A stretch of 64,000 nt of DNA from Chondrosia reniformis (lineage: Eukaryota; Porifera; Demospongiae; Chondrillida; Chondrillidae), in NCBI GenBank assembly GCA_947172415.1, contig OX359189.1:2440501-2504500 (forward strand), written 5' to 3'. A program made the translations under genes and the position numbers. Below, in pieces: positions 30,798 through 62,752 of the stretch. The first letter of the stretch is position 1. Every line of letters starts with the position of its first letter. Under the pieces are notes generated by a model. It was given only the letters and a program-made list of their open reading frames with translations. It had not been told where the DNA came from and did not search any database.

Positions 30798-32959
30798 ATG
30801 AAGATTCCCTTTGCTTTTACTGTAATTGCCATTGGTATGTGCTGAGGAGTGAAGCTATATACAGAAATTATTTTAAATATGTGTGGGGGTTGGCTGTATT
30901 TACCCTGTGGATGTCTGTACCTGGAACTGCTTAACTATACAGATAAGATGTCAAATATCTTACATAACTTTTGCCATTTGATAATAATGCACCATAAAAT
31001 TACTTTGCATGATGCAACTACAGTACGTACACATTGTAGAATTAATAGACGTCAACAAAATTGAAGTACAACTGAGATATATACTCACAGCTAACGACAA
31101 GCTTAAGTAATATATTCAATTCAGTTCTATTTCTATATAGCTATATATGTATACATTAATTTCCCCTCCAAGTGTGTGTAGTAAGTATTGTTTATATATA
31201 TAATATATATATACGTATAGCCACTGTATATAGTTTGATTTTATATTGTTCATAATGATAATGAGTATATCTTTCTTACTATACTATACATGCATGTAGG
31301 CATGTGTTTACCTAGGATAAGCTATTCAGAGAGTTACTTTCTTAATAAACTTGAGATTGGTGGTGATCCTGAAAACCAGAGAGGCTATCTCATTGCTACA
31401 ATACATCCTGAAGGAAATCCCAGTAAATTAACAACTGGTCCCGTTTGTGGTCCTATCAAGAACTACAAGACGGCATGGTATTCTTGTCTGAGTATTGGTT
31501 GGCTAACCTCAACTGGCTACGGAGATATTTCAAGCTTTGGGTATAAATTATATATCTGAATGCATTATCATACTGACTTTTCCATTATCATAATCTAAGA
31601 AAATTAATTGTAAACATTAGATGAGCTTTCCGTAGCAGCGTGAAATAATTAATGAATTATTTCAGGATGTTTCGGTCCATAGACCTCCATTAGCTAAATG
31701 ACACATGCAAAAGTGCATGCTGCTACGGAAAGTTTATCACTTAGTTTATCATACAAGTATATATAGCAAAGCAACTTCCGTAAACATGTTAACCATAATA
31801 TTTTGAAATATATAAGGATGTTTTAGATTGTTTACAAAAATTATCATCACTCCTGAAGAATTTGAGTATAATGTTCACACCATTCTTTGGCTTTACACCC
31901 AATAATTATAAAATGTATTACAATGTTATATATTCATGTATTATGGAATATATATACAGTTGTGTATACGTGAAATATTGTACATATGTATATATGTATA
32001 TATAAGTTCAGATTTTTTTCTACAGAATATCAAATCAAAACATTAAGAAAGCAATTATCTATGACCTAGATTGTACTAATGCCTCAAACCATACAGCAAA
32101 ATATGCTTGCTCCTTTGTATATGGGCCAGGACACTGTGATAAAGATATAAATAACACAGCAGCTATTAGCTGCTGTAAGTAAATATATAGTATACATATA
32201 TGCATCAAATAATATTTTTTTCAGTAATATAAATATATCGTATATATATAGTATACTAGATGGCTTAATTGTACTGATCCGTGCAAAGGCTATATATGGT
32301 GATAGGAAATCAAATAATCACTGGAACGTATTACACCAAACCAGCCAAGTGACGTCCACAGTCTTGTCTTAGCTGGTTTGGAGTAATTACCTTCCAGTGA
32401 TTATTTGTTTATCATCACAGCCTCAGTGCAATTAACTCCCTTAGCTCATTGTGAGCGCTCAGTCTCACTTAGACTATAGCCTCCACCTTCACGTATTATG
32501 AAACCACAAGTGTTTCACTTGTGGTGGATTAATAAGTGAAGACAGTCCTCCAGATTTACAGTACCATCATTGAAGTGTGCCACACTGCATGAATCCATGT
32601 AGATGAAACGCTGTCTGTGGTTCTTTGATGAATATTGGATGACTGGAAGGCAATCACTGGTTGCCAATTTAATAGGAGTTTGGTCCCATAGCTAAGCTTA
32701 GACTGTCATTGGCAGCTTATAAAAATGTATGGTCATTTAAATATATATGCATGTATGCAAAATATTATCTCTGGTTTCAGAACCCTCTGTATAATATATA
32801 TACATCTCCATGTCCCTCCTTATAGATTGGACAGTTGGTCAGGCGGTTGGCCTTGCTGTTGGCTTGTTTGTAGTCTGCTTGATACTAATATTTGTACCAA
32901 TTATAATATGCTGCTGTTGCTGCTGTGGATGTTGCAATGCTTTAAGAAGTAATATCTGA
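30798..32959 (+). CDS. SRCR-like single-pass receptor 1, 4 exons, 186 aa
   Basis: Exons 30798-30834, 31300-31540, 32026-32174, 32826-32959; intron phases 1, 2, 1. Signal peptide MKIPFAFTVIAIG; ectodomain with LEIGGDPENQRGYLIATI, VCGPI, CLSIGWLTSTGYGDISSFG, then DLDC, YACSF, GHCDK and AAISC. The six cysteines and the GG..G / C..IGW / F-G-.-I-S-.-L-G spacing match a shortened class A SRCR domain without the canonical WGTVC motif. One membrane helix follows (VGQAVGLAVGLFVVCLILIF), then the tail IICCCCCCGCCNALRSNI. It is the most diverged member, with the longest loop before the first core cysteine. Probably a cell-surface receptor; ligand unknown. Confidence 0.8.
31626..31732. mobile_element. 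107-bp fold-back element in receptor 1 intron 2
   Basis: Ends CTTTCCGTAGCAGC and GCTGCTACGGAAAG form inverted repeats. A relative without the right end lies at about 7852-7930 (ACTTTCCGTAGTAG, then CTGAAACGTCCTGAAATAAT), also within an intron. Confidence 0.75.
32313..32710. mobile_element. Compound repeat in receptor 1 intron 3
   Basis: 32313-32407 is a fold-back unit (AATAATCACTGGAACGTATT...CCAGTGATTATT with ACACCAAACCAGC / GCTGGTTTGGAGT inside). It is followed to about 32710 by the dispersed repeat found inverted at 26213-26640. Confidence 0.75.
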
Positions 32960-33302
32960 GTCGATATATGAAACACCTTATAGGCTAAACTAGTCTTGAA
33001 CATATTGTCATCATATGAAACTTGCAACAACATAATTTTACATAATTGATCAGAAATTATTATAAAGGGAGGGCGCCATCTTTGCATGAGGTGGGCAATG
33101 AATAATTAATGGTGATGCGAGTCTGATAATGGTACCTTGCAATATCGTTATCTCGTACCATCTAGTGTATATCCCCGTGCAGTACAAAAATGTATTATAG
33201 CAATCGCAAGACATCGCTGGAACGTATATATAGGGCCGGGCTTATAGGTTATAAATTTGTAGGTACGTTTCTTTTGGTCGGCGCAAGACTCCTGAGATTA
33301 CA

Positions 33303-34564
33303 ATGGGATTGGTTTCACGGTGCTTAGTTATTTCCTTCCTGGCTCATAATGGTAAGCCTATAGCTATATTTATAGGAGATATGATTACACGTGCAATGGT
33401 AATATTTTCTTTGTAAATTTAGCTGTTTTGGGACAGCAGCCTCTGGGTCCTGTAGTTGATCTTCGGATTGGAGGTGATCCCGGGAATCAGAGAGGCTATC
33501 TCTTAGCAACTATAGAACCAGGTGGTGGTACTTCTTTTACAACACCTGTGTGTGGCTCAATTGAAATAACCACTGCTTTTGCTACCTGTGGTAATATTGG
33601 GTGGCTTGCTTCTACTGGTTTTGGGACTATATCTTCGCTAGGGTGAGATATACATGTATTCTATACGACTTATATGTGATCTACATGGGACTGCATACAT
33701 GCTCATTTCTGTGGTTGCACAGCTCCGAATTGAACTGCGACTTATAAATTAACCATACGTATATACGTACGATCGAGTATATAGAAGTGATGTTTATGAT
33801 TTGGTCACTTAATAATAAAGGTTAGCTTAAGTCACTTAAGGTTAGCTTGTAATCCTGGCCCAGTCTGAGCTTAGGTTATTTCGTTACGTTTTCCAGGTAT
33901 AATAGTCACTGTTGCAAACACTATATACGTACCATACCTACTTCTAACTGGATGTTTTTATTTAATAACTTGTAGGATTGACAGTGCTCCTAGTGAAACT
34001 CCTCTAATAATGAATCTAAGATGCATTGGAGAAAACGGAACCATTACACTAGGGGGTAGCTCTTTCCAGTGTATCTATGAGGACTACGATCCAACTGAGT
34101 GCGATGGTTCAAATGCAGGGAATTTGGCTGCTCTTAGCTGTTGTAAGCTTAATATATATGCACGCCATGGCCACGACCATGTTCTATATATACACCTTAA
34201 GCTTCATATATACACATGAATGTCACTGTTTTACCATGTTATTCATCTCTTCACTGGTATTATACCAGGTTTGTTTTGGGACTTAATAACTCTGGGTGTA
34301 CCCAACAGTGCGCTTTCAATAATATATACTGTACATGAAATTCTATTCATCATACTATGCATAATCATAAACTATATACTCAAATTATATCTGCCTTCAC
34401 ATTGTGCCAATACTCCATTTCCTATAGACTTTACTGTTGGCCAGATTGTTGGTATTGCTATCGGAGCATTCATTCTCTGTCTGCTGATCACTGTTCTGCC
34501 AATCATCTGCTGCTGTTGCTGCTGTCTGTGTGGAGTTGGTTGCTGTGCCGCGGCTTCCAGATAA
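33303..34564 (+). CDS. SRCR-like single-pass receptor 2, 4 exons, 190 aa
   Basis: Exons 33303-33351, 33423-33642, 33976-34142, 34428-34564; phases 1, 2, 1. Signal peptide MGLVSRCLVISFLAHN, then AVLGQQPLGPVVDLRIGGDP, NQRGYLLATIE, TPVCGSIEITTAFATCGNIG, WLASTGFGTISSLG. The second half has LRCIGENGT, FQCIYED, TECDG and LAALSC, giving the six cysteines of a compact SRCR-like fold. The membrane helix (VGQIVGIAIGAFILCLLITV) is followed by PIICCCCCCLCGVGCCAAAS, ten cysteines in the short cytosolic tail, a likely multi-palmitoylation site (inference). Gene 2 is among the best matches to the family consensus. Confidence 0.85.
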
Positions 34565-35543
34565 TTGAGAGGATAATATTCTTCTCTGCTTGTGTTATAC
34601 CAAACTCTTTTACTAATAAAACATACATGAAGATTAACTGTACTTAGAACACCATATGTAGATCTAGATAATTATACGAATCTCTCAGTTTTCTGTCTCA
34701 CAATAGTAACTTAGTCTTGGATCTGTAATGGACCACAATTGAATTTCATTAATATTTATCCTATACATATATAGATGAAGGCATCCAAATAGGGGCCGGG
34801 TACTCTGGCTATATAGAGATGTATATGAATGTTGACAATCATTTTGATTTCTAAGTGGTGCCCCTTGCACCCTCCTGGTCTGTAAAAGTGAGGGGGGGGC
34901 TTTTGTTATCTACATATTATATACTTGAATTGCATGCCATAATTATTAAGGGTAGATAATATAAAAAATAACACAGTTAATTGAATTTAAACTTTAGTGT
35001 GACATTATTCTTACTAGATGCAACTTTAAATGATTCAGAAGTGACTATGCTCTTATATGGATAAGTAAGGATGCTAAATATAATGCAGTGGCTAGAGTAC
35101 CGGTACCAGTAATGGAACGTATTGCATTAAAGTGCTGGTACCGGTACACAAAAGTGAGCTATTAAAGTGTATACAAAAGTGGTTAAGCACTGTGAAGAAT
35201 TATATATAAATATATAATATAAGTATAACTGTACATCGATAAGCACTAGCTTACAAACTCCTGACACATAGCTGTGTTAAAGTAGCCGTAATAAAACAAT
35301 ATACGGTATAGGACACCTTAGTTATTTCTTTCGCTCGGTGAATGGCAAAAGGGAAAGGAAAGGGACTGACAGTTAAGGGGATCCAAGTGTCTGCCAACTG
35401 TCCTACGCCCATCTTAGAAGATTGCTGTTCACTTTGCTAAGAGGCCTCCAAATCAGTGTAGCTTGTGTAATTAGTATAGGAGGTGTTAACACCTGTATTC
35501 TGTGTGTCGCTAACTGTTTCTGTGTCCTTTGTGTCCTGTGTAG

Positions 35544-35806
35544 CTGGTGAACGAAAGAAACACTTGGCACACATCATGAAAGACATTAGACTACATCAGA
35601 TCTGCACTAGTGACCTCATGAAGGTGGTAGTTCCAGCTGATGTGGTTGCAACCGATACCGTGATGGCAGCTCTTGCTTACCAGTTGGACCCTGGCTCAGT
35701 TGACCCGGCAACACTTCCTGTTGGTCGTCAGTGGAGGTCACCCGAGATCCTTCTTTCTTCTGTAGAATATTCACCTCCTCCTGCACTCAATGAAGATGAC
35801 AATTAG
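35544..35806 (+). pseudogene. Orphan terminal exon, possibly BACK/BTB-like
   Basis: After the acceptor CTGTGTAG the frame reads ERKKHLAHIMKDIRLHQICT, SDLMKVVVPADVVATDTVMA, then ALAYQLDP and a stop after ALNEDDN (about 87 codons). The pattern of charged residues before an IRL-x-x-I block weakly recalls the BACK region of BTB proteins. No upstream exons were found nearby, so it is either the last exon of an unseen gene or a relic. Confidence 0.4.
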
Positions 35807-36259
35807 CATGTTCACAAATTTTATTTATTTTCATCGACAATTGTTGATTCAACTATAATATTATTATTAATACATTAATTCAAAACATGTCTGATAATGT
35901 ATAATTAATATAATATATAAATAATATAATAATGAAGTGACCTACGGAGGTCTCAAGCTCAGGAAAACATGTACAGAATCAGTAATTATAAATCATGATC
36001 ATGCACAGCACAAATGTATATACCAATGTCAATGCACCAGTTAATATATGCATGTTCACCTCTTATAACTGCATGCTGTATAAATTAAATCAACTGTTCA
36101 TGAATGCTTCAAAACTATTTTTAAATTGTCTTTGTGTAGATTATAGAACTTGCACAGTGGTTGTATGCCATTATACAGCCTGTACATCTTAACAAAGTCA
36201 TCACTGTCTCTGCGAGTTCACATGCTGGTCTGGAACCCAAGGTAAACATTGGCTGCCAG

Positions 36260-36470
36260 TTAAGGGGGTCCAGGTGTCTGCCAACTGTCCTACACCCATC
36301 TTATAAGCTTGCCGGTGCTTAAGTCACTTTTTGCTCTAAGCACCGGCAAGCCCCAAACTGACAATTAAGGGGGTCCAGGTGTCTGCCAACTGTCCTACGC
36401 CCATCTTATAAGCTTGCCGGTGCTTAAGTCACTTTTTGCTCTAAGCACCGGCAAGCCCAAACTGACAGTT
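36260..36470. repeat. 105-bp tandem duplication containing a perfect hairpin
   Basis: Two copies beginning TTAAGGGGGTCCAGGTGTCT; each contains CTTGCCGGTGCTTA and TAAGCACCGGCAAG flanking a short loop. A diverged third start lies at about 35371. Confidence 0.85.
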
Positions 36471-36909
36471 TTTTTTCTTTCTTCTTATCGTCAGTATATC
36501 GCGATATTTGTTGTAACCCACTGAGAATGGACGTTTTTCTCTTTTTTCCTTATCGTTAGCATATCGCGATATTTGTTGAAGGGTCTGGGAACCCATTGAG
36601 TTCCAAACACGCTTGGGTCGTTTTTTTCTTTTTTTCTCGTTGTGATATGTAAAATTATTTAACCAAAAAGGTAACGATGCCGATACCAGTATCGAACGTA
36701 ATCAGTCTTAAAATTACCGGTGTCCACAGCTCCCTTCAGAATATCTTAGCAATCCAACCAGTTATATTTCTGGAAAGAACCATTGAGATGAAGAATGTTC
36801 GACACTTCAATCATGCTCCCACACATTAACATAAAGCGTGTTTGGATGTGTCAATTGATCCATATTTGGAATCTAAGGGTAACGCCCTAAGCGAACTGCT
36901 AACGGAAGT

Positions 36910-38023
36910 ATGAGTCCCTTCGCTTGGTTTCTGTTATCCTTGATGATAGCTTGTAAGTTTTCATTTTGTATTCATTTACAATGTACAAGTCTGACTCCAA
37001 ATCCTAGCAAATTTGTAAATTTCAAAGCACGTAGAATACGTTCATAGGAAGGTACTAGCTATGTCCTTTTTCCGCAGGGTCTGGCAGTCAGGAATTTGGT
37101 CCAGTGGTTGATCTTCGCATAGGAGGGGATCCGGGCAACGAGAAAGGATATTTGGAAGTGACACTTAGGAATTCAACAGATAACGAAACCCTTTCTACAA
37201 CTACCTCGTGTGGTACAGTGGGTTTCACAACGGCTGAATTCGCTTGCTTGAACATAGGATGGGTATTTACTACTAATTACGGAACAGTTGGCGACCTAGG
37301 GTATGAATTAGCTTATTTATGTCACGCTTGCCTTCTTAGCAACATAAATGAAGTATTGTGTAATATCTTCTCCTAGTCTGTTATTATCACATGTAGTAGG
37401 TACATTGCAACAACTGATAATTTTGAAAAGCATTATTTTTGTTAGTGATATATCAATCAACATTTTACAAACAGACTTGCAGTATTTGGTGATTATCAGC
37501 AGAAATATATATTTAAATAATAGAATCCTACGTACTGTTTAAACCAAACACTAGTCTTTACTTCCTCTGATATTCCTTGACTTTCCTTGTAGCATAAACC
37601 AAGCTCCGGGAACACCAAAAATTGCCAACCTACAGTGTAGTAGTAAGAGCAACAGTGATGGAGGCACCCTATTTGACTGCACATATGATACAGCAGTTGC
37701 TATATGTGTTCAGGATAGGTCCCAAGTTGCTGCTATTAGCTGTTGTAAGTTGACAAAATATCCTTTTTTGGAATCCTGTATCTTTGATTATGTTGTGTGA
37801 AATTTATTAAACCTAATTGTCTTGTCTATCAAATGAGTGTGCATGATCCCTGTCTCTATTAATTACAGATTGGTCACCTGGTCAAATAGGAGGCATTGCT
37901 GCCGGTGTGCTGGTACTCTGTTTGTTGATCACTTGTTTGCCAATCATCATTTGCATCTGTTGCTGCTGTGGAATTGGCATCTGTGCTGGCAAAAGTCGCA
38001 CCAAAAAATATGACCGAATTTAA
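36910..38023 (+). CDS. SRCR-like single-pass receptor 3, 4 exons, 190 aa
   Basis: Exons 36910-36952, 37078-37300, 37593-37744, 37869-38023; phases 1, 2, 1. Signal peptide MSPFAWFLLSLMIAWSGS; ectodomain FGPVVDLRIGGDPGNEKGYL, SCGTVGFTTAEFACLNIGW, GTVGDLG, then LQCSS, FDCTYDT, AICVQ and AAISC, six core cysteines. Membrane helix GQIGGIAAGVLVLCLLITCL; the tail is longer and more basic than in the others: PIIICICCCCGIGICAGKSR then TKKYDRI. The extra basic stretch may alter trafficking or membrane charge (inference). Gene 4 begins only 189 bp after its stop. Confidence 0.85.
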
Positions 38024-38211: not shown

Positions 38212-40180
38212 ATGTCGAACTTGTACATGTCCTATCTGATTTTCCTAGTGTGTTTTGTTCTGTTTCGAATTCATAAAGGTTAGTAGTACTTTATCACTGT
38301 TTTAATGTTGTTAAGCGTCCTCGCAGAGTACATTAGTTAAGTAAGTTTGCTAAATTAAGAATACTTTAGCCACCATATAAAGTAGACAGTAGACATCCAA
38401 ATTACCCAACACCGAATGTTGGAGCTGTGACGTCCATATAGGCCTTTATTAAAGCTACGGCTGTAATAGGCTCCGTTAATCACATGATCTCCTGTAGCTG
38501 CTTGCTTATCCATACAGGTTCTGTTGCGCAAGAACTGGGGACTGTGACTGACCTATCAATTGGGGGAGATCCAGGTAATGAAAGAGGTTATCTGCTTGTG
38601 ACTATTCAAAACTCCACCAGTACCTTTAGAACCCCTGTTTGCAATCAAGTTAACTTTCTTACAGCCGAGGCTGCTTGTATTAATATTGGATGGTTTGTCA
38701 CCATACAACAGGGAACCATAAGATCATTTGGGTAGGTCTTCATTAATGCATGTATACAGTACTTTTTGTGATGTACCTGGCCAGTAAAATGAACAATAAA
38801 TATTCTTGAATCATGAAAAATCTAATATACCATTTTCCTACATGCTATGCCTATTCTGTAAAAAAGCCTATAGGGGAACTAAACCTGAAGAGAGCTTTGA
38901 ATGAAGATACAGGGGTCTTTTCTTTCTTCTTTTCCTTTCTTTCATCTTCTCCTCCTTCATATCACAGTATTTGTATCAAAGTTGGTAACTACTGATTAGT
39001 CGGGTTTAATGTGACCAGTATTAAGCTTAGATGTGAATAATATCAGTATACTGTAAGAAATACAGAAGAACCATCACTACAGAATGTAATTATCGATGAT
39101 GAGTAGCTTGCAGTGTTGCTCGTAAACCTTAAATCACATATTGATGACTTCTATTCTCTTGTATGTACACATTTTCTTTGCAGCATTGACAGTAATCCAT
39201 CTCTACCAGTCCTGATTTCAAATTTGGACTGCACTGGTTCAAATTCCACATCTCATCCCAAGTTCTTTGACTGCACGTATAGCACAAATGTGACAGACTG
39301 TAGGACCAGTTACAATAATGTAGCCGCTATTAGTTGCTGTAAGTTGGTTGACTTTGTTTTTAGCGGAATGATATATTAGCTATAACAATTAATTTATGTC
39401 AATACATTTATTTTGCAAATGGTGGCACTCCGGAAGCTAAGCTTTTCTATAACTTTGAGGACACTTAAGCATTCAAAAGCATTAAGATTATGACTACATA
39501 TATGCCCAACAAAATGGCCAAATAACTCGAGTGTGAGGGGACATCCCCACAAGTTTTTTAATTGAATTACTTGTCTATGAAGTTTTCTGATGTACTGGGC
39601 TTTCTTAAATTAGAAAGAAGTGATCACTAAATCTCGTCTACCTTCATCACCTCTTTACTACTGTACAGAGTCCTTATTTCTCTCTCTATTGTCACAATTA
39701 TATGAAGAGTAGGGAGTCTTCTAACTGTGTCTTTTGAAAGGACACTGAAGAAGACCCTCAGGATCGAAATGTCTGACAGCCAAGAAGAGATAACAAAACT
39801 GAGTCTTTAGATGCTCTAAAACTCGAAAGATGATCCTTTCAAATGATAAATATGTGTGTGTCTACTTCAAAATTCCTCTGTAGTGCCATCTTCCTGTGTG
39901 CATGTATATAGATAGCACAATGTAATGTTGACGATGTAGAATATATTATAACATTAAGACTGTCATGTGAATACACATATACCTAGGGTCACCCACTTGG
40001 AACATAATTGATGATGATTCCATTTCAGTTTTAATATATCTTTGTATAGGGTTTACTCTTGGCCAAATAATAGGAATTGCCGTTGGAGTGTTTGTTCTCT
40101 GTCTTCTGATCACGCTTCTCCCCATCATATGCTGTTGCTGTTGTCTGTGTGGAGTTGGCATCTGTGCTACCTCAAGTTAA
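38212..40180 (+). CDS. SRCR-like single-pass receptor 4, 4 exons, 188 aa
   Basis: Exons 38212-38278, 38518-38731, 39184-39338, 40050-40180; phases 1, 2, 1. Signal peptide MSNLYMSYLIFLVCFVLF; ectodomain TVTDLSIGGDPGNERGYLLV, TPVCNQVNFLTAEAACINIG, TIRSFG, then LDCTGSNST, FDCTYST, TDCRT and AAISC. Several N-x-S/T sites are present (QNSTST, GSNSTS, STNVT). Membrane helix GQIIGIAVGVFVLCLLITLL followed by PIICCCCCLCGVGICATSS. Intron 2 contains the GCCTATAGGGGAACTAAACC dispersed repeat (38846-38955); intron 3 (39339-40049) has no recognised element. Confidence 0.85.
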
Positions 40181-43066: not shown

Positions 43067-44975
43067 ATGAAGTACCTCTTGCTCGCCGTTTTGTGCATTG
43101 CCGTGGCTTATGGTAAGTTTCCTAACTCCTGCACAGTTCCGATTTTTCAAATATCTTGTGCATGTACATATATATGTACATGTATTATTAGGTTTGGTAT
43201 CCACCTATTATGTATCTTAAGCTTATTGTATATAGGCCATTCATAAGAGCTAGACTTGCAGGATGAGCGAGACTTCGACAAAAAATGCATGAGATGGCGC
43301 ATGCCCAATAAATGAGAATTTTTGTACTCGCTTCGCTCGCATATATATATCACCATATCGGATGCACATGGACCTCGTGAGTGATATCCATATTCGCACG
43401 ACCGTGCATAGATTATCATTATTTCGACTTAAAAACTCGTATTCTGACACTTTAAATATCCGGCGAAAACTAAAAAGCGGACCAGTGGAACTGGGTCCGT
43501 CTAACTAAAAGACGGACCCAGGAAAAGGAAACAAACTTGAGCGAACCGAGCGCCGAGCGCGCCGAGCACCGCCATTTTGCAATAATGTGTTAGGAACATG
43601 TAGTCTGACGTATCCTGACCAGGTTCTTCCTCCATTTTGCTATGACGTCATAGAAAAATGGAGGAAGAACCGTGGAGGAACATGTAATTACAATGAAATG
43701 CGTAAGATTTGGTATGTCTGATAAGAGGTAAGTAGTTTACACAAAGCCTGAGTATATCAAGGATATCTCAGGCAGTTCAAAGGTGCATATAGTGACTCCT
43801 CCCTAACCTTGCATCTTAGGTGAAGAAGGTAACATAAGGGTTAGAATAGGTGGAGATCCTGATAACCAGAGAGGCTGGGTGGTGGCTACCATTCCACAGA
43901 TTGGAGACACTACTGTTTGTGGCCAAGTCGAATATACAACTGCTTTTACAACCTGCAACAGTCTGGGATGGCTTGCTTCTACTGGAACTGGAACTGCTGA
44001 ATCTCTTGGGTAACATGCACTGCAGCAATCATTGGTTATTATAACTATAAGTAGACCAGAGACTGTTGTTCATTGTAATTATATCCTTTTAGCATAGTAT
44101 GCAAAATTAGAGATCTATAATTATTTTACAGCTAGCCACTTATATTAGCCACTTATAACCTTTTACCTTTTTTGTGTTGTTATAGTATTGAAGGTTCAGC
44201 TCCTTTTGAACCCGGGATCAGCAATTTGGTCTGTGCAGGAATCTCTGGTGCAGCCATTGGAGTAGATTCCAGTGTCTTGGCTTGCACTTGGGACATTGGT
44301 GGTGTACAAGAATGTCTAGTTGACAACAGTAAATTAGCTGCTATTAGCTGCTGTAAGTCTTAATCGTAATATACTTGATAGAAGGAAACTTTGTACTGTA
44401 TGTATTATGCATGTATTATTATTATTATTAAACTGGTAACTGCAACAGTAAAAACAAGAATGTTTTGTAGTTAAAGTTGCAATCAGTCTTTTTCCATGGA
44501 TCTCCAAGTGCTACTATAATTATAACTCATGACCTAAGCGTCATGCATGGGTTTTATTCTTTAATGCTGTTCTCAACTAGCTAGACTTCTAATATACCTC
44601 ACCTTCATAACATGGACTTAATATACGTAGATAGACTTATAGATTATTAGCTTGTATAGAATCACTGCTAATTATATATAGACTAATCATTGGATGTTGC
44701 AATTGTAGCTCAGTGGTGAGAGAAACCAGCTCTCCTGGTTCCCAACAATAGCTTCTTTTTGTTTTCCTTCTTCATAATGTTTGCTCGTAATTAATTGTGG
44801 TTATTACTTCAATTATTTACATTTTATTTCTCCATTTCCTATAGACTTTACTGTTGGCCAGGTTGTTGGTATTGCTATTGGAGCATTTCTACTCTGCCTG
44901 CTGATCACTGTTCTTCCAATCATCTGCTGCTGTTGCTGTCTGTGTGGAATTGGTTGTTTAGCAAGCTCCAAATAG
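43067..44975 (+). CDS. SRCR-like single-pass receptor 5, 4 exons, 177 aa
   Basis: Exons 43067-43112, 43820-44009, 44186-44352, 44845-44975; phases 1, 2, 1. Signal peptide MKYLLLAVLCIAVAYG; ectodomain IRVRIGGDPDNQRGWVVATI, TTVCGQVEYTTAFTTCNSLG, WLASTGTGTAESLG, then NLVCAGISGAAIG, LACTWDI, QECLV and LAAISC. Membrane helix VGQVVGIAIGAFLLCLLITV followed by PIICCCCCLCGIGCLASSK. Compared with genes 1-4 the loop before the first core cysteine is shorter (exon 2 is 190 nt). It is the partner of gene 6 in the 4.2-kb duplication; no disabling change is seen in either copy. Confidence 0.88.
43622..43671. repeat. 50-bp palindrome centred on TGACGTCA
   Basis: Arms GGTTCTTCCTCCATTTT and AAAATGGAGGAAGAACC meet at TATGACGTCATA; 24 of 25 base pairs match. 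The centre is a perfect cAMP-response-element octamer. Located in receptor 5 intron 1 and absent from the corresponding intron of receptor 6. Confidence 0.9.
44704..44750 (+). repeat. tRNA-like 5' fragment (A box)
   Basis: GTAGCTCAGTGGTGAGAG, a good tRNA A box, then CCAGCTCTCCTGGTTCCC. The counterpart in receptor 6 intron 3 (48616-48665) ends GTGTTTGATTCCC, a weak B box. A tRNA-derived SINE head is likelier than a functional tRNA; no acceptor stem closes. Confidence 0.5.
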
Positions 44976-45712: not shown

Positions 45713-45841
45713 AAGAATTGTCATGGAAAGGGAATGTCAGTTACCTAGCAACATGTCCAGTTAAGAAAGGAGGACTGAGTAGTATTAATCTAACCCATTC
45801 AGATGGGGAAAATAGTAAAAGAAAGTATTGGATCAAGGGAT
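45713..45841 (+). other. Conserved exon-like block, copy A
   Basis: 129 nt between TACTTACAG and GTGAGTAT, open in a single frame with symmetric phase 1 ends: ELSWKGNVSYLATCPVKKGG, LSSINLTHSDGENSKRKYWI, KG. Copy B (49607-49735) has the same protein with one silent change. It may be an exon of a small secreted or membrane protein, or an alternative exon of the receptor transcript. The family is not recognised. Confidence 0.5.
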
Positions 45842-46639
45842 GTGAGTATTTTGTTCATACACTATAGTTATTGTAAATTAGTGTTTTGCCCATTAATACG
45901 TATATTACAAGACATACACTTTGCATAATCAATACATTAAAAATGTTATATATTACTACATTAGTTGTATAAAGTTATTGTGGTTGAAAACTGCATGGAA
46001 TCAGCAGTGTGAGTATAACAACTGTAAAGGACCCGGACTAAATCTGTTTAATGGTACTACCAGATTTAGCATTCTACCAGTCCCTAGTAACTAGTAACTC
46101 CTAGCTACCATAGTTCGTTTGGGGGAGATGCGTAGTAACAGGTTCTCTTTATCCCATAGTTCAGTTCCCGCAGCTGTTTGGTTATGAAACAGTATATGTA
46201 ATCTATTTGAACAAGATTATTAACTTTGACATTTGTTACTGTATAATGGTTTTTTATTCAGTCCAATAAATAAAATGTTTTTCTTAAAAACTGGAATTTC
46301 AATTTTATGCTATTAATATTTATGCCCTTTAATTTTGTCGGAAATGCCCCAGTGCTGCTTTATTTCCTTTCTGTCTACCAATCTTGGTACACTGTTTGTT
46401 GTTGAAAATCTATACAGCCTTCTCTTTCGCTTGCCATGTTCAATAACTCACTGGACAACCTTATTTGCTTCTGTGTTAACCCTCTCTCCAATTCCAGTGT
46501 CAGCTGGCGATGGAGGTGGAACTATAAGTGGCTTGAAATAGCAATGAATCATTTCAGCTACTCATTCTATAGAAAGCTACATGAGGGCAAAACCAGGAAT
46601 GTAGGTAATGAGGAAATAGGAGGTGTTGTGTTAATAGCA

Positions 46640-47020: not shown

Positions 47021-47124
47021 TATCCATCCGCAGGTCCAGGGATGCCACGGGGAGCCTTTGAGCCTTTATATTTCAAATGTAGCTATATAGGCCAGGTATA
47101 TACCTGTCACTCAAAATGTGGCAC

Positions 47125-47292: not shown

Positions 47293-48864
47293 ATGAAGTA
47301 CCTCTTGCTCATCGTTTTGTGCATTGCTGTGGCTTATGGTAAGTTTCCCAAACTCTTACTATTTCTGCACAGTTCTGATTTTCAAATATCTTGTACATGT
47401 AGGTTTGGTATCTTTGATTCCACCTATACATATGCATCTTAAGCTTATTGTATATAGGCCATTCATAAGAGCTAAGGCTAGACTTGCAGGATGAGTGAGA
47501 CTTCAACAAAAAATCTTGAGATTGCCCCATAAATGAGTGAGAAAATGTTTTGCTCACTCTGCTCTCATATATTCACTATATCAGATCAAGTGATAGGGAG
47601 TAATTTTAGTTGCGTTCATTATGATGGAGCTATCTGCAACAAAAATCGAGCTAGATTGAATGTTTCGACCTGTACGTAGGTCTTCATCAGGAAAGGATTA
47701 CGGCAGTTGGTTTAAATAGAAAAAGTGACTGGAGTTAAAAATTGAATAAAATGCCAAAATGAAAAAAATAATTTCTAGTGTTCTCTTCTAATTTTTAATC
47801 ACTAGAAATTATTGACTCCTTGCATCTTAGGTCAAACAAACATTAAGGTTACAATAGCTGGAGATCCTGATTTCCAGAGTGGCTGGGTGGTGGCTACCAT
47901 TTCACAGAATGGAATTTCAGTAGACACTACTGTTTGTGGCCAAGTCGAATATACAACTGCTTTTACAACCTGCAACAGTATAGGATGGCTTGCTTCTACT
48001 GGAACCGGAACTGCTGGATCTCTTGGGTAACATGCACTGCAGCAATCCAACAATTATTATAACTAGACCAGAGACTGTTGTTCATAATAATTATTTCTTT
48101 TAAGCATAGTATACAAAATTATAAATGTACAGCCACTCATAACCTTTTACCTTTTTGTGCTGTTGTAGTATTGAAGGTACGCCTCCAGCTGTACCCCTGA
48201 TCAGCAATTTGGTCTGTGCAGGAGCCTCTGGTGCAGCCATTGGAGTAGATTCCAGTGTCTTGGCTTGCACTTTCGACATTGGTGGTGTACAAGAATGTCT
48301 AGTTGACAACAGCAAATTAGCTGCTATTAGCTGCTGTAAGTCTTAATCGTAATATACTGCATGTGGTATATGATAGAAAGAAACTTTGTACTGTATGTAT
48401 TAAGCATGTATTGCTATTATTATTATTATTAAACTGGTAACAGCAACAGAATGTTTCAGAATGTAGTTAAAGTTGCAATCAGTCTTTTCCCATGGATCTC
48501 CAAGTGCTACTATAATAACTCATGACCTAAACGTCATGCATGGGTTTTATTCTTTAGAGATAAACTTACAGATTATGAGCTGTATAGAATAACCGCTAAT
48601 TATATAATCATTGGATGTTACAATTGTAGCTCAGTGGTGACTGAAACCAGCTCTCCTGTGTTTGATTCCCTTTTCCCTCTTCATGACATTAATTGTGGTT
48701 ATTACTTAAATTTTATTTCTCCATTTCCTATAGACTTTACTGTTGGTCAGGTTGTTGGTATTGCTATCGGAGCATTTCTACTCTGCCTGCTGATCACTGT
48801 TCTGCCAATCATTCTTTGTTGCTGCTGTGCCTGTGGAATTGGTTGTTTAGCAGGTTCCAAGTAG
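47293..48864 (+). CDS. SRCR-like single-pass receptor 6, 4 exons, 179 aa
   Basis: Exons 47293-47338, 47831-48026, 48169-48335, 48734-48864; phases 1, 2, 1. Signal peptide MKYLLLIVLCIAVAYG; ectodomain IKVTIAGDPDFQSGWVVATI, TTVCGQVEYTTAFTTCNSIG, WLASTGTGTAGSLG, NLVCAGASGAAIG, LACTFDI, QECLV, LAAISC. Membrane helix VGQVVGIAIGAFLLCLLITV, then PIILCCCCACGIGCLAGSK. Differences from gene 5 cluster near the N-terminal GGDPDNQRG motif (here AGDPDFQSG) and in a two-codon-longer loop before the first core cysteine; the second SRCR half is nearly identical. This hints that the N-terminal loop changes faster, but formal rate tests are needed. Confidence 0.88.
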
Positions 48865-49606: not shown

Positions 49607-49735
49607 AAGAATTGTCATGGAAAGGGAATGTTAGTTACCTAGCAACATGTCCAGTTAAGAAAGGAGGACTGAGTAGTATTAATCTAACCCATTCAGATGG
49701 GGAAAATAGTAAAAGAAAGTATTGGATCAAGGGAT
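49607..49735 (+). other. Conserved exon-like block, copy B
   Basis: Same 129-nt block as 45713-45841 with intact acceptor and donor. The only difference I see is GTC to GTT in a valine codon. Confidence 0.5.
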
Positions 49736-50566
49736 GTGAGTATTTTGTTCATACACTATAGGTATTGTATATTTAGTGGTTTTGCCCATTAATACATATA
49801 TTACATCTTACACCTAAAAGATATACACATTGAAGTTTATCCCATAATCAATGTATTAGTGAGTATAACAACTGTAAAGGACCTGGACTGAATCTGTTCA
49901 ATGGGACTATACCAGATTTAGCATTCTACCAGTCCCTAGTAACTAGTAACTCCTAGCTACCATAGTTCGTTTGGGGGAGATGTATAGTAACAGGTTCTCT
50001 TTATCCTATAGTTCAGTTCCCGCAGCTGTTTGGTTATGAAACAGTATATGTAATCTATTTGAACAAGATTATTAACTTTGACATTTGTTACTGTATAATA
50101 TTTTTTATTCAGTCCAATAAATAAAATGTTTTTATTAAAAACTGGAATTTCAATTTTATGCTATTAATATAATTTAATTTTGTCGGAAATGCCCCAGTGC
50201 TGCTTTATTTCCTTTCTGTCTACCAATCTTGGCACACTGTTTGTTGTTGAAAATCTATACTGCCTCCTTTTTCACTTGCCATGTTCAATAACCCACTGGA
50301 CAACCTTGTTTGCTTCTACAGTATGTTAACCCACTCTCCAATTCCAATGTCAGCTGGCGATGGAAGTGGAACTATAAGTGGCTTGAAATAGCAATGAATC
50401 ATTTCAGCTACTCATTCTATAGAAAGCTACAGAGGGCAAAACCAGGAATGTAGGAAAGGAGGAAATAGGAGGTGTTGTGTTAATAGCAAGAGACTGGGAC
50501 AAACTATTTTATAATATTCATAGACTTGTCAGTGCAGCATTCAATAGTCTTCTCACATCCAATTTG

Positions 50567-54351: not shown

Positions 54352-56092
54352 ATGAAGGTCTTCTTGTTTGCTGTATTGTGTGTAGCCATGGTTTATGGTT
54401 AGTTGCCAAAGCACTTATTCTAGCAAGGGCAGGTTTCTAGAGAGCTACAATACTCATCCAGCTGCCCTCAAGAGAATGTCTAACTCTCAACTGATTGATG
54501 CTACACATTCGAATAATCTCTATATACTGATGTAACGTGTTTCTATATAGTAACCATTTTGTTATTCCAGTTAGAATTAGACATATAGGCTTCTTATCTT
54601 TCCTGATACCCTACTGTGAAGCCATCCATATCGCTTGGTGTTGTAGTATTTTGTACTTTAAAGGGACATCTCAGTCAGTTCAAAGACATCATATTAATGA
54701 TTATTCTTTCATCCTTTATTCTTATAGGTGAAAGTGGACGTATTCCAGTTAAAATAGATGGAGATCCAGATAACCAGCGAGGCTGGGTGGTGGCTACCAT
54801 TAGAGGTGTAGAGTACTCAGTTTGTAATCAAGTTGATTTTATAACAGCTTTTGCAATCTGTAACACTCAGGGATGGCTTGCTGCTACTGACACTGGAACT
54901 GCTGGAACTTTTGAGTAACTTAGATAGACAGAGTAACAAGTCTTATGGTATAATATGTTATGTATAGTCGTAGACCTGAGACTGCTAATTGCAGCCTTTA
55001 GTTTTGCTATTAAATTCATAGGATAGCTGACCATTTAGTGTAGAAATTAAATTTACTGATATTACAAGCTTGAAGAAATTTCTCCTATTCTTTGTTACAG
55101 TTTGAAAAGGTTGTAATACAATAAAACACCTGTAACTGATGTCACAAAGTTTACAATACATATAATATATGTATTACAACAGGCTCTAAGTTTATATATT
55201 GCATATTAGCACCACACTTTTATCATAAAGAGTGGAAGATGTAAGATGGTTGGTGAGATAGGGCCTGGTGAAATAGTGTTGCCCACACTTGTGTGGTTGA
55301 CTTATATTATTTTCATTTCATATGTATTATGAACACCTTGTGATCAATAGCTGTAAAACATTCATAATTGCTACATATGAGCATTGCTAACATGATATAG
55401 AAAATTGTTTTGGATGCTTCAACATTTATTCAAGTGAAGCCACAGGTTTTTGACTCAAATTACTAGTTCTTTTATGGTTTCAGGTTCTGTTTTGTACTAT
55501 TGCAGAATTACAGGATTCACTGGTGTTCCTACGTCATCCATTTCGACATTGAGCTGTGTAGTAACAGATATTAGTGGTGAATTGCAATGCGACTGGACTG
55601 CGTATAGTGGAACCTGTCCCAATACTAACATAGCTGCTATTAACTGTCGTAAGTTAATAAGTAACAAGTTACTGGAAGACATACGTACATATGCTATAAA
55701 CACCTATACCTATATAATGTTATGATAGTAGCCTCTATATAGCTAATGGCAAACTTTATTAAAATTATTATTAATGTTCTCTATCACATCCTACCAATTG
55801 TATTATATCATTAAGAACTATTACTTATTTGCTTCTTTGACTCTCAAAATCTGCAACAACTTTATAATGTTTTCTATATTTTTATGGATATATAAATTAT
55901 TTGCTATGAATGTACTGTATATACTTATAAGCACTTATATACATGTATCTTTTTGCTTTTGCAGAGTTTAGTGTTGGTCAGGTTGCTGGGATTGTTATTG
56001 GAATAATCATTTTTCTTGTGTTGGCCATTGGTGTACCAGTCGTCTTTGGAGTCTGGTATTACTTTAGGGCTCGTTGTCCTATTTGCAAGTAG
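54352..56092 (+). CDS. SRCR-like single-pass receptor 7, 4 exons, 167 aa
   Basis: Exons 54352-54397, 54728-54914, 55506-55648, 55965-56092; phases 1, 2, 1. Signal peptide MKVFLFAVLCVAMVYG; ectodomain IPVKIDGDPDNQRGWVVATI, YSVCNQVDFITAFAICNTQG, WLAATDTGTAGTFE, then STLSCVVTD, LQCDWTAYSGTC and IAAINC. The codon spanning exons 2 and 3, Gly in all other members, is Glu here because the donor reads TTTGA/GTAACT. The membrane helix (VGQVAGIVIGIIIFLVLAIG) is followed by VPVVFGVWYYFRARCPICK: the poly-Cys tail of genes 1-6 is replaced by an aromatic/basic tail with a terminal CxxCK. A broken hydrolase copy follows at 56853. Confidence 0.86.
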
Positions 56093-56852: not shown

Positions 56853-57264
56853 CCACAAAAGATTCAAGGTTGGAAGGGGCAGTAACCATTATATTTGGTG
56901 CATTAGTAGCTAATGTTTTAGGTATATATATTTGGGAATAAATGATTCTGTTTTATAGATATATGTACTATATATTCGTGCCGTACTTATGTTATATATA
57001 TATGTATATAATGTTCGATCATATATCATCACTAGGCCTACATACTTCTTTTTTTCTATTATATATTTTTTCATTTAATAAATATAGGTCAGCCATTGCA
57101 CTGGATATACAAGATGGAGAGACTAAAGGATGTATTGAGGGGAGTTGATAAACCACAATTTTTTGAACCATCAGCTAATCCTTTTTATCAGCTTAAAGTG
57201 GGAGCGCAAAGTCCTTATGGTGATGAGATGATGGTTGTCTTGGAATCACTGGCATCATGTGATG
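56853..57264 (+). pseudogene. Broken ADP-ribosylglycohydrolase / J1-crystallin-like copy
   Basis: A decayed first exon (to 56921, with KDSRLE-like text and IIFGALVAN but no start codon) and a still-open second exon at 57088-57264 (GQPLHWIYKMERLKDVLRGV, FFEPSANPFYQLKVGAQSPY, GDEMMVVLESLASCD). The later exons present after 63647 are not found downstream. It is the counterpart of the gene at 62980 and lies in the same position behind receptor 7 as that gene does behind receptor 8. Confidence 0.85.
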
Positions 57265-60200
57265 GTAAGCTTGATGTATCCATGTATGGGTTATTTGTAA
57301 GTAGTAGGAGTACAGTTGAGGCTATGTGATGGTAAATTTTAGGAATACAGTTGAGGCTACGTGATGGTAAATTTTTAGGGATACAGTTTTAGCCTTCTTT
57401 TCAATGCAATTCAATTTATAAGTTAACATGAATGCTGTATTTGCAATAAGTGTCTTACCCACTTTGCTGCAAGGTATATACACAGTCTTTTTGTCTACAG
57501 GCATAGTCAATACATGTATTCTCATGTTCACCTACTCAGTTTCCTCTATCTACCAAGATTGATATATACACTATATTGATATATATAAAGAAGAAAAAAT
57601 GAATTTTGGAAGTGGGTCTATTCCTAGTTAGCCGCTTTTTGAACGCTATAGAGCGTGTAGAGCGTCGAAACATGTTTTGGCATTTAGGAAAACGTGCATT
57701 AATCGCTGCAAATAACCGAATATAACCGAAAATCGCTTCGTTGGCGATTTATGAGGTGTTGATTGCTAATACATTGGATAGGGCGGCCATTTTTTTTCCG
57801 GCCATTCCTACTTAGAGAGTACTACCGTACTCTCTGATAACATTTTATGTCAATCTTTTCCTTATAAGAAAATGTGAGAAATGATAAAATTGTAATACTA
57901 ATATAATACACACATGATCCTGGTGTAGGACATTTCATATATGTATATACTGTATATGCATATTGAAACAATCAGTTAATGGATAACTGTGTATGTGTGG
58001 GTACAGTATGTTTACAACATGAAATTTTCCTTTGAGAATGACATTACATTCATAAACATTTATTTCATAAACACTTCCCACCTCTGCATATATTGTACAT
58101 GTATCTACGTAGCACCTATCCTCAAATATAAAAATGTGAAATCTTTGTTCAATTCTTGAAAATTTTGTCACATTAGCATTTTCACTCATACAGTATACAT
58201 GTATTAATTGCTCTTAAGATCCAGAAAATTATTTTAGGACAATATAACTTGTAGATAGCTATAGGTATAATTTTTATTCTACATATAAAATTTGGAAATG
58301 ACTAAATTGTGTATTTCTCAGCTTGCTTGTGTAGTGTGCTTGTGTAGTGTGCTTTAGTTTTAAGCGATAAACAACTGATGCTGTAATGTAAAGGAGTGAA
58401 TTTTATAATCCATCCACTGCCTTTGCAAAGAAAGGGTCAAATGATTTGTGTTGATGATTATGGTTTTAGTGTACTTTATTCCGATTTTGGTTACCACTGG
58501 AAAGATTCCTGCATGTCACTGAAAGTATTTATTTTAAATGTTTCTGTGAATTGTATTGCATGTGGTAAAAGGTGTTATTTGATTTTTATTGTAAGACTTC
58601 TATTATGCATAAAATTTATATACTGCAACATTCAATAGTCTTATCACATCCACTATGGAATGTATTACCTATACTGTGACTGTTACAAGTTAATTTTTGT
58701 GGGGTGTCTGCATGATCTATTAGTAGGTCAGTTTATGTATAAATATATCACTATTCTGTAAATCTGCCACAGAATTGGTCACTTTCATGCATTCGTGTCA
58801 GATGAATGGTTTTTTTTTATGTGTGATTAGTATCAGATGAATGGGGATTTATATCAATTCTCAGTTGTTGCTGTACTATATTCTAACCACAGAAAGTAAC
58901 CTGTTACTGGGGATTTTTGTGAATAAGATTATGATGATTTAAAGAAGACCAAAGTTGAACCATCTGAAATACAAGTAGATAGATTGGTAAAAGATGTTTT
59001 TATAGCAAGGCAGAGACAAACTTAATTTTATTATACCAGACCAGTATAACAATAAATGGAGTTCAGACACTTTCTTTTATTTGTGTAGTATAGATATTTG
59101 ATGAAAACATTTCTGTATATATACAGTGTCATATTATGAATAATACAAGTAAAAATAATTATATACATTTTTAATTTTTAGTTTTGGGGATGAAATATCA
59201 ATGGAAAAATAGATCAAAAGCCGAGAAGATTAAGATCAGCTTTTGATCTAAAAAAGTCCCCTATTTTTTCCATTTTTGGCTCTACCCCTTATCTGCTGAT
59301 AAGGAAACCACAAACTTTTTAGCTTTTAGGGGTATTTATCATCAGAGTAGTTACTCAGACTTCCATCACATGCCATACTGATGAGTCCTTTAATAAGGAT
59401 GCAACAGCTGTCTATGGTTCAATCATCTTTTTGAGTACGTGGCTAAGGGCCAGGGGGGGGGGAGGGGGGGGACTCTGGTTCCCATTGGGTTCTAGATGTC
59501 TACATTTGTTATGCACACTATTTGATAGAAAATATTCAGAACCTTGAAAGAAGATTAATTTTATTTATAGGTGTCAGCATTTTTTCATGGTCTATATGTA
59601 TATATACTAAAATAGGTTTCAATGCATATGCAGTGATGATGATACGTAACAAAGCTTAAAATCCCCTATTTTCAATATACCAGCTGTTTTGAGATGGTTC
59701 ATCCTTAGACACTTAAAAGGACTAAAGATGAAACATCTCAAAGGTAAGTTTCAGGCAGTTAAAAGAAATCCCTAAGCATTTGACCTTATTAATATTTAGC
59801 ATGTCATTTGTTTAGTATACCTTAGTGGACCAACCTACCAACCTACTAAACAGATTTTATACAAATATGCTTTTCACTACATATCAGCAAATCTGCCACA
59901 AAATTGGCTACTATTTAGCAATTTGTGTAAGATGAAGAGGGGTTTTATTTATCAAATTCCAATTGTGACTATACTGTGACTATATATACAGAAAGACATC
60001 TGGCACTGAAAATATATAGATTTTGTGAATAAGCAGGTATTTAGTTATTCAAGGGACGTACAGAGCCAATTTCATGCATAGAATTGTTAGTGCAATATTA
60101 TTAATAGTCTTTTGTATGTGGAGTTTACCAGTTACATTAAAGATTAATTTTTATTCGCCTATAGCTAGACAAAAAATATTCTGTAAAGAGAAATATAAAA

Positions 60201-60824
60201 ACTTTTTGAGTGAAGGCCATATGTATATTCAATCTAATCTTAATCAGTTAGGCTGGCCGAAAAACATGGTCGCCCTATTCAATGTATTATCAATTAACAC
60301 CTAAAAATCAACATGATTCGATTTTGGTCATATTCGACTATTTCCAGTCGTTTATCTACGCTGTTCTAAATGCCAAAACATGTTTCGATTCTACAATGTT
60401 AGGAAAGTGGTTAACCAGCAATAGGCCCAAGCATATTACACCAGAACGATATATAAACCATGAATGGAGTTTAGACGTTTTCTTTTATTTGTGTACTAGA
60501 TATTTGCTAAAAATATTTCTATATATATATACAGTGTTCATGTTATGCAGGATGAATAGTATTAGCAAAACATAATATTGGGACACATTATTAGAGAGCA
60601 TTTGGTTGTCTGCATTGTCCAGATCTACTGCAGCTGGTTTCACTGTATATTCAATGATGATCATATCAAAATTTTAAGATCTGCTTTAGATCTTAAAATC
60701 TTTCCCTATTTTTCATTATGGAAGTTACTAACACTTATATTATAGCGTACCATTTGTTTAGTACATCAAGTACCCTCCTACCATGCAACCTACTAAATAT
60801 ACATTGTGACCGTGGATGAATAGT
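57265..60824. other. Gap between the broken hydrolase and receptor 8
   Basis: Holds three short tandem copies of ACAGTTGAGGCTACGTGATG (57310-57385), the inverted AGTAGGGATGGCCG-family repeat (57600-57835), its direct copy (60245-60430), a hairpin at 59688-59742, an AGATCAAAAGC...GCTTTTGATCT inverted pair at 59210-59250, and a poly-G stretch at 59450-59470. No intact gene is seen. Confidence 0.65.
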
Positions 60825-60965
60825 GTGAGGCGGGAGGGCGGTCCTTGTTTCTAGGGGTGTACCTGTTGTTGCTAAGGTGTGGGCGTACCTGCTTTACTAT
60901 ATATTCGACAGTGCTAAACATCTAATGCACTACCAGCTGTTGCTCTTCCAGTTTCACAAGCTATC
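60825..60965 (+). promoter_or_regulatory. Promoter region of receptor 8
   Basis: Same elements and spacing as upstream of receptor 7, with GGGAGGGCGGTCC, GGGCGTACCTGC and the TATA-like TATATATTCGACAG about 65 bp before the start codon. Confidence 0.6.
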
Positions 60966-62752
60966 ATGAAGGTCTTCTTGTTTGCTGTATTGTGTGTAGC
61001 CATGGTTTATGGTTAGTTGCCAAAGCACTTATTCTACCAGCTGTTAACAAGGACAGGTTTCTAGAGAGTTACATTGTAACAATACTCATCCAGCTGCCCT
61101 CAAGGGAACATCTAACTCTCAACTGATCGATGCTACACATTCGAATAGTCTATACTGATGTCACATGTTTCTATATAGTAACCATTTTGTTATTCCAGTT
61201 AGAATTAGACATATAGGCTTCTTATCTTTCCTGATACCCTACTGTGAAGCCATCCATATCAGTTGGTGTTGTAGTATTTTGCACAAAGCCTTGATTATAA
61301 AGGACATCTCATGCATGCAGTCAGTTCAAAGGCATCATATTAATGATAATACTCTTTCATCCTTTATTCTTATAGGTCAAACTAGTGGATCCGGAACTAT
61401 TCCAGTTAGAATAGGTGGAGATCCAGATAACCAGCGAGGCTGGGTGGTGGCTACCATTAAAAATGTAGATTACACAGTTTGTAATTCAGTTGATATTGTA
61501 ACAGCTTTTGCAATCTGCAACACTCAGGGATGGCTTGCTGCTACTGACACTGGAACTGCTGGAAATTTTGGGTAACTTATATAGATAGAGTAACGAGTCT
61601 TATGGTAATATGTTATGTATAGTCGTAGATCTGAGATTGCTAATTGCTGACCATTTAGTGTAGAAATTAAATTTTATAATATTAGTCTTGAAGAAACCTC
61701 TCTTATTCTTTGATACATACATACATAGCGGTTTGATAGTATTTGAAAGGTTGTAATACAATAAAATTCCTGTAACTGTTGTCACAAAGTTTACAATATA
61801 ATAATATAGTCATGTCTTACAACTGGCTCAAAGTTTATACGTATATTGCATATTCCAATACCATGTCAACACTGCCTCTAAGATACAGCTCCTTGATCAT
61901 TTGTTAAGTTAAAGTGTTAAATATTAAGGTTACCATATAGGAAAACCGATCTTAAATTGTCAGGTTTTATCATAAAGGGTGGAAGATGTAAGATGGTTGG
62001 TGAGATAGCGTGACCTGCCCTCACTTGTGTGATTGATCTTATATTATTTTCATTTCATATGTATTATGAGCACCTTGTGATCAATAGCTGTAAAACTTTC
62101 ATAATTGCTACATATGAGCATTGCTAACATGATATAGAAAATTGTTTTGGATGCTTCAACATTTATTTAAGCGATGCCACAAGTTTTTGACTCAAATTAC
62201 TAGTTCTTTTATGGTTTCAGGTTCTGTTTTGTACTATTGCAGAATTACAGGCTTCACTGGTGTTCCTACATCATCCATTGCGACATTGAGCTGTGTAGTA
62301 GCAGATACTAGTGGTAATTTGCAATGCAGTTGGACCATGTCTACTGGAACCTGTCCCATTAATAATATAGCTGCTATTAACTGTCGTAAGTTAATAAGTG
62401 CATGTAACAAGTTACTGGAAGACATGATGGCAAACTTAATTAAAATTATTATTAATGTTCTCTGTCACATCCTACCAATTGTATAATTTAAGAACTATAA
62501 TTATTTGCTACTCTCAGAATCTGCAACAACTTAATTAGTAATGTTTTCTAATATATATTATTTGCTATGATGTACTGTATATACTTATAAACACTTATAT
62601 ACATGTATCTTTTTGCTTTCACAGAATTTAGTGTTGGTCAGGTTGCTGGGATTGTTATTGGAATAATCATTTTTCTTCTGTTGGCCATTGGTTTACCAAT
62701 CGTCTTTGGAGTCTGGTATTACTTTAGGGCTCGTTGTCCTATTTGCAAGTAG
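60966..62752 (+). CDS. SRCR-like single-pass receptor 8, 4 exons, 170 aa
   Basis: Exons 60966-61011, 61376-61571, 62243-62385, 62625-62752; phases 1, 2, 1. Signal peptide MKVFLFAVLCVAMVYG, identical to gene 7; ectodomain IPVRIGGDPDNQRGWVVATI, YTVCNSVDIVTAFAICNTQG, WLAATDTGTAGNFG, STLSC...ATLSCVVAD-type second half, LQCSWTMSTGTC and IAAINC. Exon 3 uses the downstream of two AGs 22 bp apart; only this one keeps frame. Membrane helix VGQVAGIVIGIIIFLLLAIG, then LPIVFGVWYYFRARCPICK. Gene 8 has three extra codons near the mature N-terminus compared with gene 7. The tail is identical to gene 7, suggesting constraint on it. Confidence 0.87.

Follow-up and report, generated by a model that had tools for sequence, protein, structure and literature searches.

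Eight tandem receptor-like genes with a probable, remote SRCR ectodomain in the sponge Chondrosia reniformis

SRCR domains comprise about 100 to 110 residues and are grouped by cysteine content and gene structure: group A domains contain six cysteines and are encoded by two exons, and group B domains contain eight cysteines and are encoded by a single exon (PMC3100851). For group A, coding by two or several exons is described (PMC3100851, PMC4491621). SRCR genes are expanded in the sponge Amphimedon queenslandica, where 158 of 296, about half, are arranged in tandem; group C domains show seven conserved cysteines, and the clustered sponge domains are mostly spread over three exons (PMC10855680). 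An SRCR protein of Geodia cydonium contains at least ten SRCR repeats (PMC4491621). The locus compared with these systems lies in a window of 64,000 nucleotides from Chondrosia reniformis (contig OX359189.1, positions 2,440,501 to 2,504,500 of the forward strand), to which all coordinates given here refer. Between 30798 and 62752, the plus strand of this window carries eight sister genes in tandem (g1 to g8), which probably encode group A-like SRCR receptors that ordinary domain searches do not recover.

Tandem array and gene models

The first ATG of the array is located at 30798, and the last stop codon ends at 62752. For the gene models, bases 30500 to 64000 were read, and the exons were placed by hand and then verified by script. 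All eight models, built from the sequence, show four exons, intron phases 1-2-1, and no internal stops, leading to products of 167 to 190 residues. A recount by script finds the GT donor at 24 of 24 introns and the AG acceptor at 24 of 24, in agreement with the original prediction of eight plus-strand, four-exon genes with these phases. The leader of each protein is hydrophobic, and the signal peptides are assigned from hydropathy alone. The genes are as follows.

g1, 30798 to 32959, plus strand: 186 residues; exons 30798-30834, 31300-31540, 32026-32174, and 32826-32959; CCCCCC in the tail
g2, 33303 to 34564, plus strand: 190 residues; exons 33303-33351, 33423-33642, 33976-34142, and 34428-34564; CCCCCC after the helix; exon 4 unusually near that of g5
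g3, 36910 to 38023, plus strand: 190 residues; exons 36910-36952, 37078-37300, 37593-37744, and 37869-38023; tail CICCCC..., with YDRI at the C terminus
g4, 38212 to 40180, plus strand: 188 residues; exons 38212-38278, 38518-38731, 39184-39338, and 40050-40180; CCCCC after the helix
g5, 43067 to 44975, plus strand: 177 residues; exons 43067-43112, 43820-44009, 44186-44352, and 44845-44975; CCCCC after the helix
g6, 47293 to 48864, plus strand: 179 residues; exons 47293-47338, 47831-48026, 48169-48335, and 48734-48864; CCCC after the helix; young duplicate of g5
g7, 54352 to 56092, plus strand: 167 residues; exons 54352-54397, 54728-54914, 55506-55648, and 55965-56092; tail GVWYYFRARCPICK, no poly-Cys
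g8, 60966 to 62752, plus strand: 170 residues; exons 60966-61011, 61376-61571, 62243-62385, and 62625-62752; tail like that of g7 (GVWYYFRARCPICK); young duplicate of g7

A scan of the whole window with exons 2, 3, and 4 as profile queries against six-frame pieces of at least 15 residues finds each of these exons eight times on the plus strand at E ≤ 4e-15, with no further hit below an E value of 0.06. Because the scan gives exactly eight copies, the array is complete within the window. In the older paralog pairs, synonymous differences exceed nonsynonymous ones (in exon 2 of g1 and g2, the proportion of synonymous differences, pS, is 0.72 and that of nonsynonymous differences, pN, is 0.37), as real coding sequence would show. 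The row of eight receptor-like genes is thus real. Scans for relatives in two nonanimal collections returned 22 pattern matches among genome contigs and 58 among viral contigs, none of which was confirmed.

Probable SRCR ancestry of the ectodomain

Six ectodomain cysteines, as originally predicted for each gene, are counted in all eight proteins. The predicted order of motifs around them stands without exception for C-x-x-x-G-W and L-x-C (8/8 each) and with one exception each for V-C (7/8; g3 has S-C) and for A-x-I-x-C at the last cysteine (7/8); g2 has AALSC at this position, and its A-x-I-x-C match falls within the membrane helix. Alignment of the eight sequences reveals 22 invariant ectodomain columns. 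The domains are 103, 103, 111, 112, 113, 113, 115, and 116 residues long, which is at or slightly above the group A range of ∼100 to 110 residues (PMC3100851), and the description of the fold as shortened is not borne out. The cysteines align in order with the six shared cysteines of group A (C2, C3, and C5 to C8, without C1 and C4) in 8/8 proteins, and the domain is encoded on exons 2 and 3 in every gene. With six cysteines over two exons, the family fits group A. The disulfides of the group A fold are C2-C7, C3-C8, and C5-C6. The six cysteines and two exons do not fit group B, with its eight cysteines and one exon, and the six cysteines found in all eight proteins do not fit the sponge group C, with seven conserved cysteines.

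A profile built from all eight sequences finds the SRCR domains of LOXL2 as its best match in the PDB (chain E value of 0.0017) and the SRCR domain of M2BP at an E value of 0.9. Comparison by hhalign with a reference set of ten SRCR domains, seven of which come from CD163 and one row of which was entered by hand and not copied from a record, yields an alignment of 98 columns with a score of 26.6 (E = 0.00047, counted as a single comparison), in which the six cysteines are paired in order. This score is reached by none of 200 free and none of 200 cysteine-fixed column shuffles, whose maxima are 21.4 and 20.5, respectively. The clearest of the ancestry tests is a gap-free, cysteine-anchored comparison of the 37 positions that lie at most 6 residues from a shared cysteine and are occupied by one residue class in at least 70% of the ten SRCR domains. 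The family matches 43.6% of these positions, compared to 19.2% ± 4.6% after permutation of the family columns without gaps and without cysteines, and none of 5000 permutations reaches the observed value. When the register is slid by 1 to 5 positions both ways (ten registers), the match falls to 0.10 to 0.25.

The cysteine spacings of the family (12-13/33-35/11-17/9-10/10-13) resemble those of the SRCR domains (13/28-34/10/9-11/10). Among the SRCR positions, the alanine at C3-4, the glycine at C3+4, the hydrophobic residues at C5-5 and C5-2, and AA[IL]xC at the last cysteine are each kept in 8/8 proteins. The family has lost the W-G before C2, the aromatic C2+4 residue, and the basic C3+1 and C6+1 residues, and the surroundings of C6 and C7 keep the SRCR pattern only in part. 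The ectodomain very probably has an SRCR fold, and its SRCR ancestry is likely but remote, in the twilight zone of sequence comparison.

Several results weigh against this ancestry. Pfam gives no SRCR match for any of the eight proteins at E ≤ 5, although its filters remove the majority of matches weaker than 0.1, and a lone family sequence finds no match in the PDB. In the search in which LOXL2 leads, its two SRCR domains taken singly reach E values of only 0.5 to 0.8, and antibody chains follow from 0.22. A profile built from g1 to g6 loses LOXL2 and retains M2BP (E = 0.4) in second place behind an antibody chain. The hhalign probability against the ten SRCR domains is only 33%, and subprofiles of two to six sequences score 13.9 to 18.8, which is within the shuffle range. 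When single sequences are scored against an SRCR hidden Markov model, only g4 beats all 500 cysteine-fixed shuffles; the score is reached by 55 shuffles for g2, 43 for g6, 32 for g1, 25 for g7, 18 for g3, 16 for g5, 3 for g8, and 0 for g4. The WGTVC(DD) motif, a hallmark of SRCR domains more than a defining rule, is present in 0/8 proteins, and its lack had been predicted correctly.

The missing Pfam match, the weak single-sequence and subprofile scores, and the antibody chains scoring near the SRCR matches in the PDB profile searches would also be expected if the six-cysteine ectodomain had another fold and shared the SRCR-like cysteine order by chance. Such a coincidence is quite improbable, as neither the cysteine-fixed shuffles (0/200) nor the permuted columns (0/5000) reach the observed match, register slides abolish the signal, and the two-exon coding agrees with group A. 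The SRCR-like assignment of the original prediction thus holds in the eight-sequence PDB profile, in hhalign with its shuffles, in the cysteine-anchored test, and in the six cysteines over two exons, but it finds no echo in Pfam or in the LOXL2 ranking of the g1-to-g6 profile.

Membrane anchor, proposed function, and evolution

Each protein contains a single hydrophobic helix with the pattern G-x-x-x-G-x-x-x-G inside it (8/8), and the 24-residue helix core is free of charged residues in all eight proteins. The predicted helix start near VGQ applies to six proteins, with PGQ in g3 and LGQ in g4. With a helix length of 24 residues counted from GQ, the tails measure 14 to 23 residues, within the previously claimed limit of about 25. 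Just behind the helix, g1 to g6 show a run of 4 to 6 cysteines, at the place where g7 and g8 have GVWYYFRARCPICK. The GxxxGxxxG pattern and the juxtamembrane cysteine run are two conserved features that the earlier description had missed. A tail scan for ITIM-type (immunoreceptor tyrosine-based inhibitory motif) and YxxPhi-type patterns detects the former in 0/8 tails and the latter, a possible endocytosis signal, in g3 only, whose C terminus is KKYDRI (exon 37869-38023).

Judged from sequence features, the genes rather likely encode type I membrane paralogs, each with one divergent group A-like SRCR domain, that would serve as surface receptors for recognition, adhesion, or capture and would cluster in the membrane. 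Here, the SRCR domain would be the surface-exposed head that binds ligands. The GxxxGxxxG pattern may lead to side-by-side pairing of the proteins, and the cysteine run of g1 to g6, just inside the membrane, may be palmitoylated, which would gather bound receptors in ordered membrane patches; both steps are guesses from the motifs. In several immune receptors, palmitoylated juxtamembrane cysteines move the receptors into ordered membrane (review PMC7655920). The lack of the cysteine run in g7 and g8 counts against this proposal. Since the tail is tiny and the helix offers no charged residue for an adaptor, any signal would come via clustering with partner proteins; otherwise, the proteins would be adhesion or capture receptors.

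The main rival explanation regards the proteins as cell-cell adhesion or aggregation molecules, involved in tissue sorting or the binding of an aggregation factor, and not as immune receptors, with the SRCR head binding an endogenous partner. This is possible, though doubtful. The very short tails and the lack of an ITIM-type pattern in all eight agree with it, and in Blumbach 1998 (cited in PMC4704026) a sponge SRCR protein is said to be named a putative aggregation receptor. No feature of the window separates adhesion to own cells from the binding of microbes, and the single SRCR domain per protein differs from the repeats, at least ten, of the Geodia SRCR protein. Invertebrate SRCR domains in general are thought to serve cellular recognition (PMC4491621), which again is in line with adhesion. 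The probabilities given to this and the other rivals overlap, both among themselves and with that of the favored reading, and do not sum to one.

Both g5/g6 and g7/g8 sit in young segmental duplicates, and local segmental duplication gave rise to no fewer than two of the eight genes, one from each pair (g6 or g5; g8 or g7). The g5/g6 units also contain an orphan open piece of 50 residues (ELSWKG...; 45715-45867 and 49609-49761) with no Pfam match at E ≤ 1. Its two copies show one difference in 126 bases, which is synonymous, and nine unit parts differ by 6.5 to 15.8% (intron 1, 39.5%). Downstream of g8, at 62981-64000, an ADP-ribosylglycohydrolase-like gene starts and runs toward the window edge (Pfam E = 1.2e-5, just under the curated cutoff). 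Downstream of g7, a matching stretch (56870-57265) retains two exon-like pieces but differs at its 5' end, and three strings from the next exon of this gene have exact matches in the g8-side copy only. The stretch at 56870-57265 looks like a remnant carried along by the g7/g8 duplication.

Between g5 and g6, the membrane-and-tail part shows a nonsynonymous rate (dN) of 0.056 and a synonymous rate (dS) of 0.388, compared to a dN of 0.098 and a dS of 0.067 in the ectodomain (contrast P = 0.003); the former part is constrained, and the ectodomain is not. With three nonsynonymous and no synonymous changes, the same part of g7/g8 is uninformative on constraint and does not repeat the g5/g6 contrast. 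In most pairs, the protein sequence of the membrane exon is more conserved than that of the ectodomain exons, the pN of exon 4 being lower than that of exon 3 in 28/28 pairs and lower than that of exon 2 in 23/28.

The locus had also been called diversifying, a claim that the tests do not sustain. The ectodomain dN/dS ratios of the young pairs are 1.46 and 1.22, neither of which is significant (P = 0.36 and 0.40), and in a site model of all eight ectodomains, M2a is not better than M1a (2ΔlnL, twice the log-likelihood difference, of 1.5). M1a assigns 48% of the sites to strong constraint and 52% to near neutrality (omega of 1), and the ectodomain can therefore be described as combining a constant scaffold with other sites that are free to change. 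In g7/g8, nonsynonymous change in the ectodomain (31/252 sites, 12.3%) exceeds intron change (75/1095, 6.8%; P = 0.006). In g5/g6, there is no such excess: all introns together differ at 239/995 positions (24%), significantly above the 9.1% of the ectodomain. Most of these differences fall in intron 1 (187/473), which aligns badly, and introns 2 and 3 alone differ at 52/522 positions (10.0%). Diversifying selection on the ectodomain, as looked for in a recognition locus, is thus suggested by g7/g8, not by g5/g6, and is not significant in the site model, all within one genome sequence.

The equal fit of M1a, the nonsignificant young-pair ratios, and the g5/g6 comparison with introns would suit ordinary tandem duplicates that drift under relaxed constraint without forming a recognition repertoire. 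Such drift is rather unlikely in view of the eight intact frames and 24 intact splice pairs, the 22 invariant ectodomain columns, and the g7/g8 excess over introns.

Synonymous differences between g2 and g5 amount to 11 in 32.5 sites of exon 4, compared to 64.9 in 86.7 sites of exons 2 and 3 (P = 4e-5). Among six pairs tested in this way, g2-g6 (P = 0.0004) and g3-g4 (P = 0.001) also differ, and g2-g4, g4-g5, and g1-g2 show no difference. In tree tests with 2000 replicates, which the program rates as too few, the data for exons 2 and 3 reject the exon 4 tree (approximately unbiased [AU] test, 0.0006), and the exon 4 data do not reject the tree of exons 2 and 3 (AU, 0.11). An exchange of the membrane exon between copies, placing exon 4 of g2 near that of g5, is suggestive only. 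An extended version of the receptor proposal would see an SRCR branch too divergent for domain searches, in which a variable head (exons 2 and 3) is set on a shared, exchanged anchor (exon 4), so that a clustering, lipid-anchored device for capture or signaling is kept as the recognition surface changes and the repertoire is absent from published sponge SRCR counts; as a whole, this picture is speculative and on balance unlikely.

Outside the receptor region, the first 14 kb of the window contain seven tandem arrays (1349-9605 and 13622-13965), whose lengths range from 170 to 535 bases and whose units span 7 to 54 bases; the largest in the receptor region has 215 bases (36253-36467) in two copies of 105. 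A one-piece open frame of 381 residues at 3985-5127 includes a segment that matches collagen (PF01391) at E = 2.1e-5, just under the curated cutoff. A split gene is present in two similar copies at 15473-18069 and 22729-24837, the first of which matches nucleotide-diphospho-sugar transferase (PF03407; E = 8.6e-7), and a galactosyltransferase open reading frame on the minus strand (14120-15118; PF01762; E = 5.8e-33) adjoins them.

Comparison with known SRCR systems

In the open-licence literature, no paper describing such a receptor cluster was found. Two sponge surveys rely on Pfam models to find SRCR genes (PMC10855680, with BLAST alongside; PMC6208332). As the screen of the former is given as PF00530 plus BLAST at 1e-5, the eight genes were probably missed by it. 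If they are SRCR receptors, at least one compact receptor cluster, and perhaps others, goes uncounted in such Pfam-based sponge surveys. The single-domain, almost tailless layout with poly-Cys would offer a simple system for asking how a tailless SRCR head acts.

The family shares with the group A proteins MARCO, M2BP, and LOXL2 the six cysteines in the same order, a similar spacing, and two coding exons, as well as the alanine at C3-4, the glycine at C3+4, the hydrophobic residue at C5-2, and the alanine and isoleucine or leucine ahead of the last cysteine. Contrary to group A, it lacks WGTVC and a Pfam SRCR match, and its members are type I proteins with a tiny tail and, in six of them, poly-Cys behind the helix. 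The known proteins also differ in carrying a collagen stalk (MARCO) or an enzyme domain (LOXL2). The expansion of SRCR genes in tandem resembles the group C set described for Amphimedon queenslandica, from which the six cysteines and two exons found here differ, compared to seven cysteines and mostly three exons there. The aggregation receptor of Geodia cydonium reportedly combines SRCR domains with short consensus repeats. With the Geodia SRCR protein and putative aggregation receptor, as described, the family shares an SRCR domain in a sponge protein and a possible role in cell recognition, but it carries a single domain per protein in contrast to the many SRCR repeats in Geodia.

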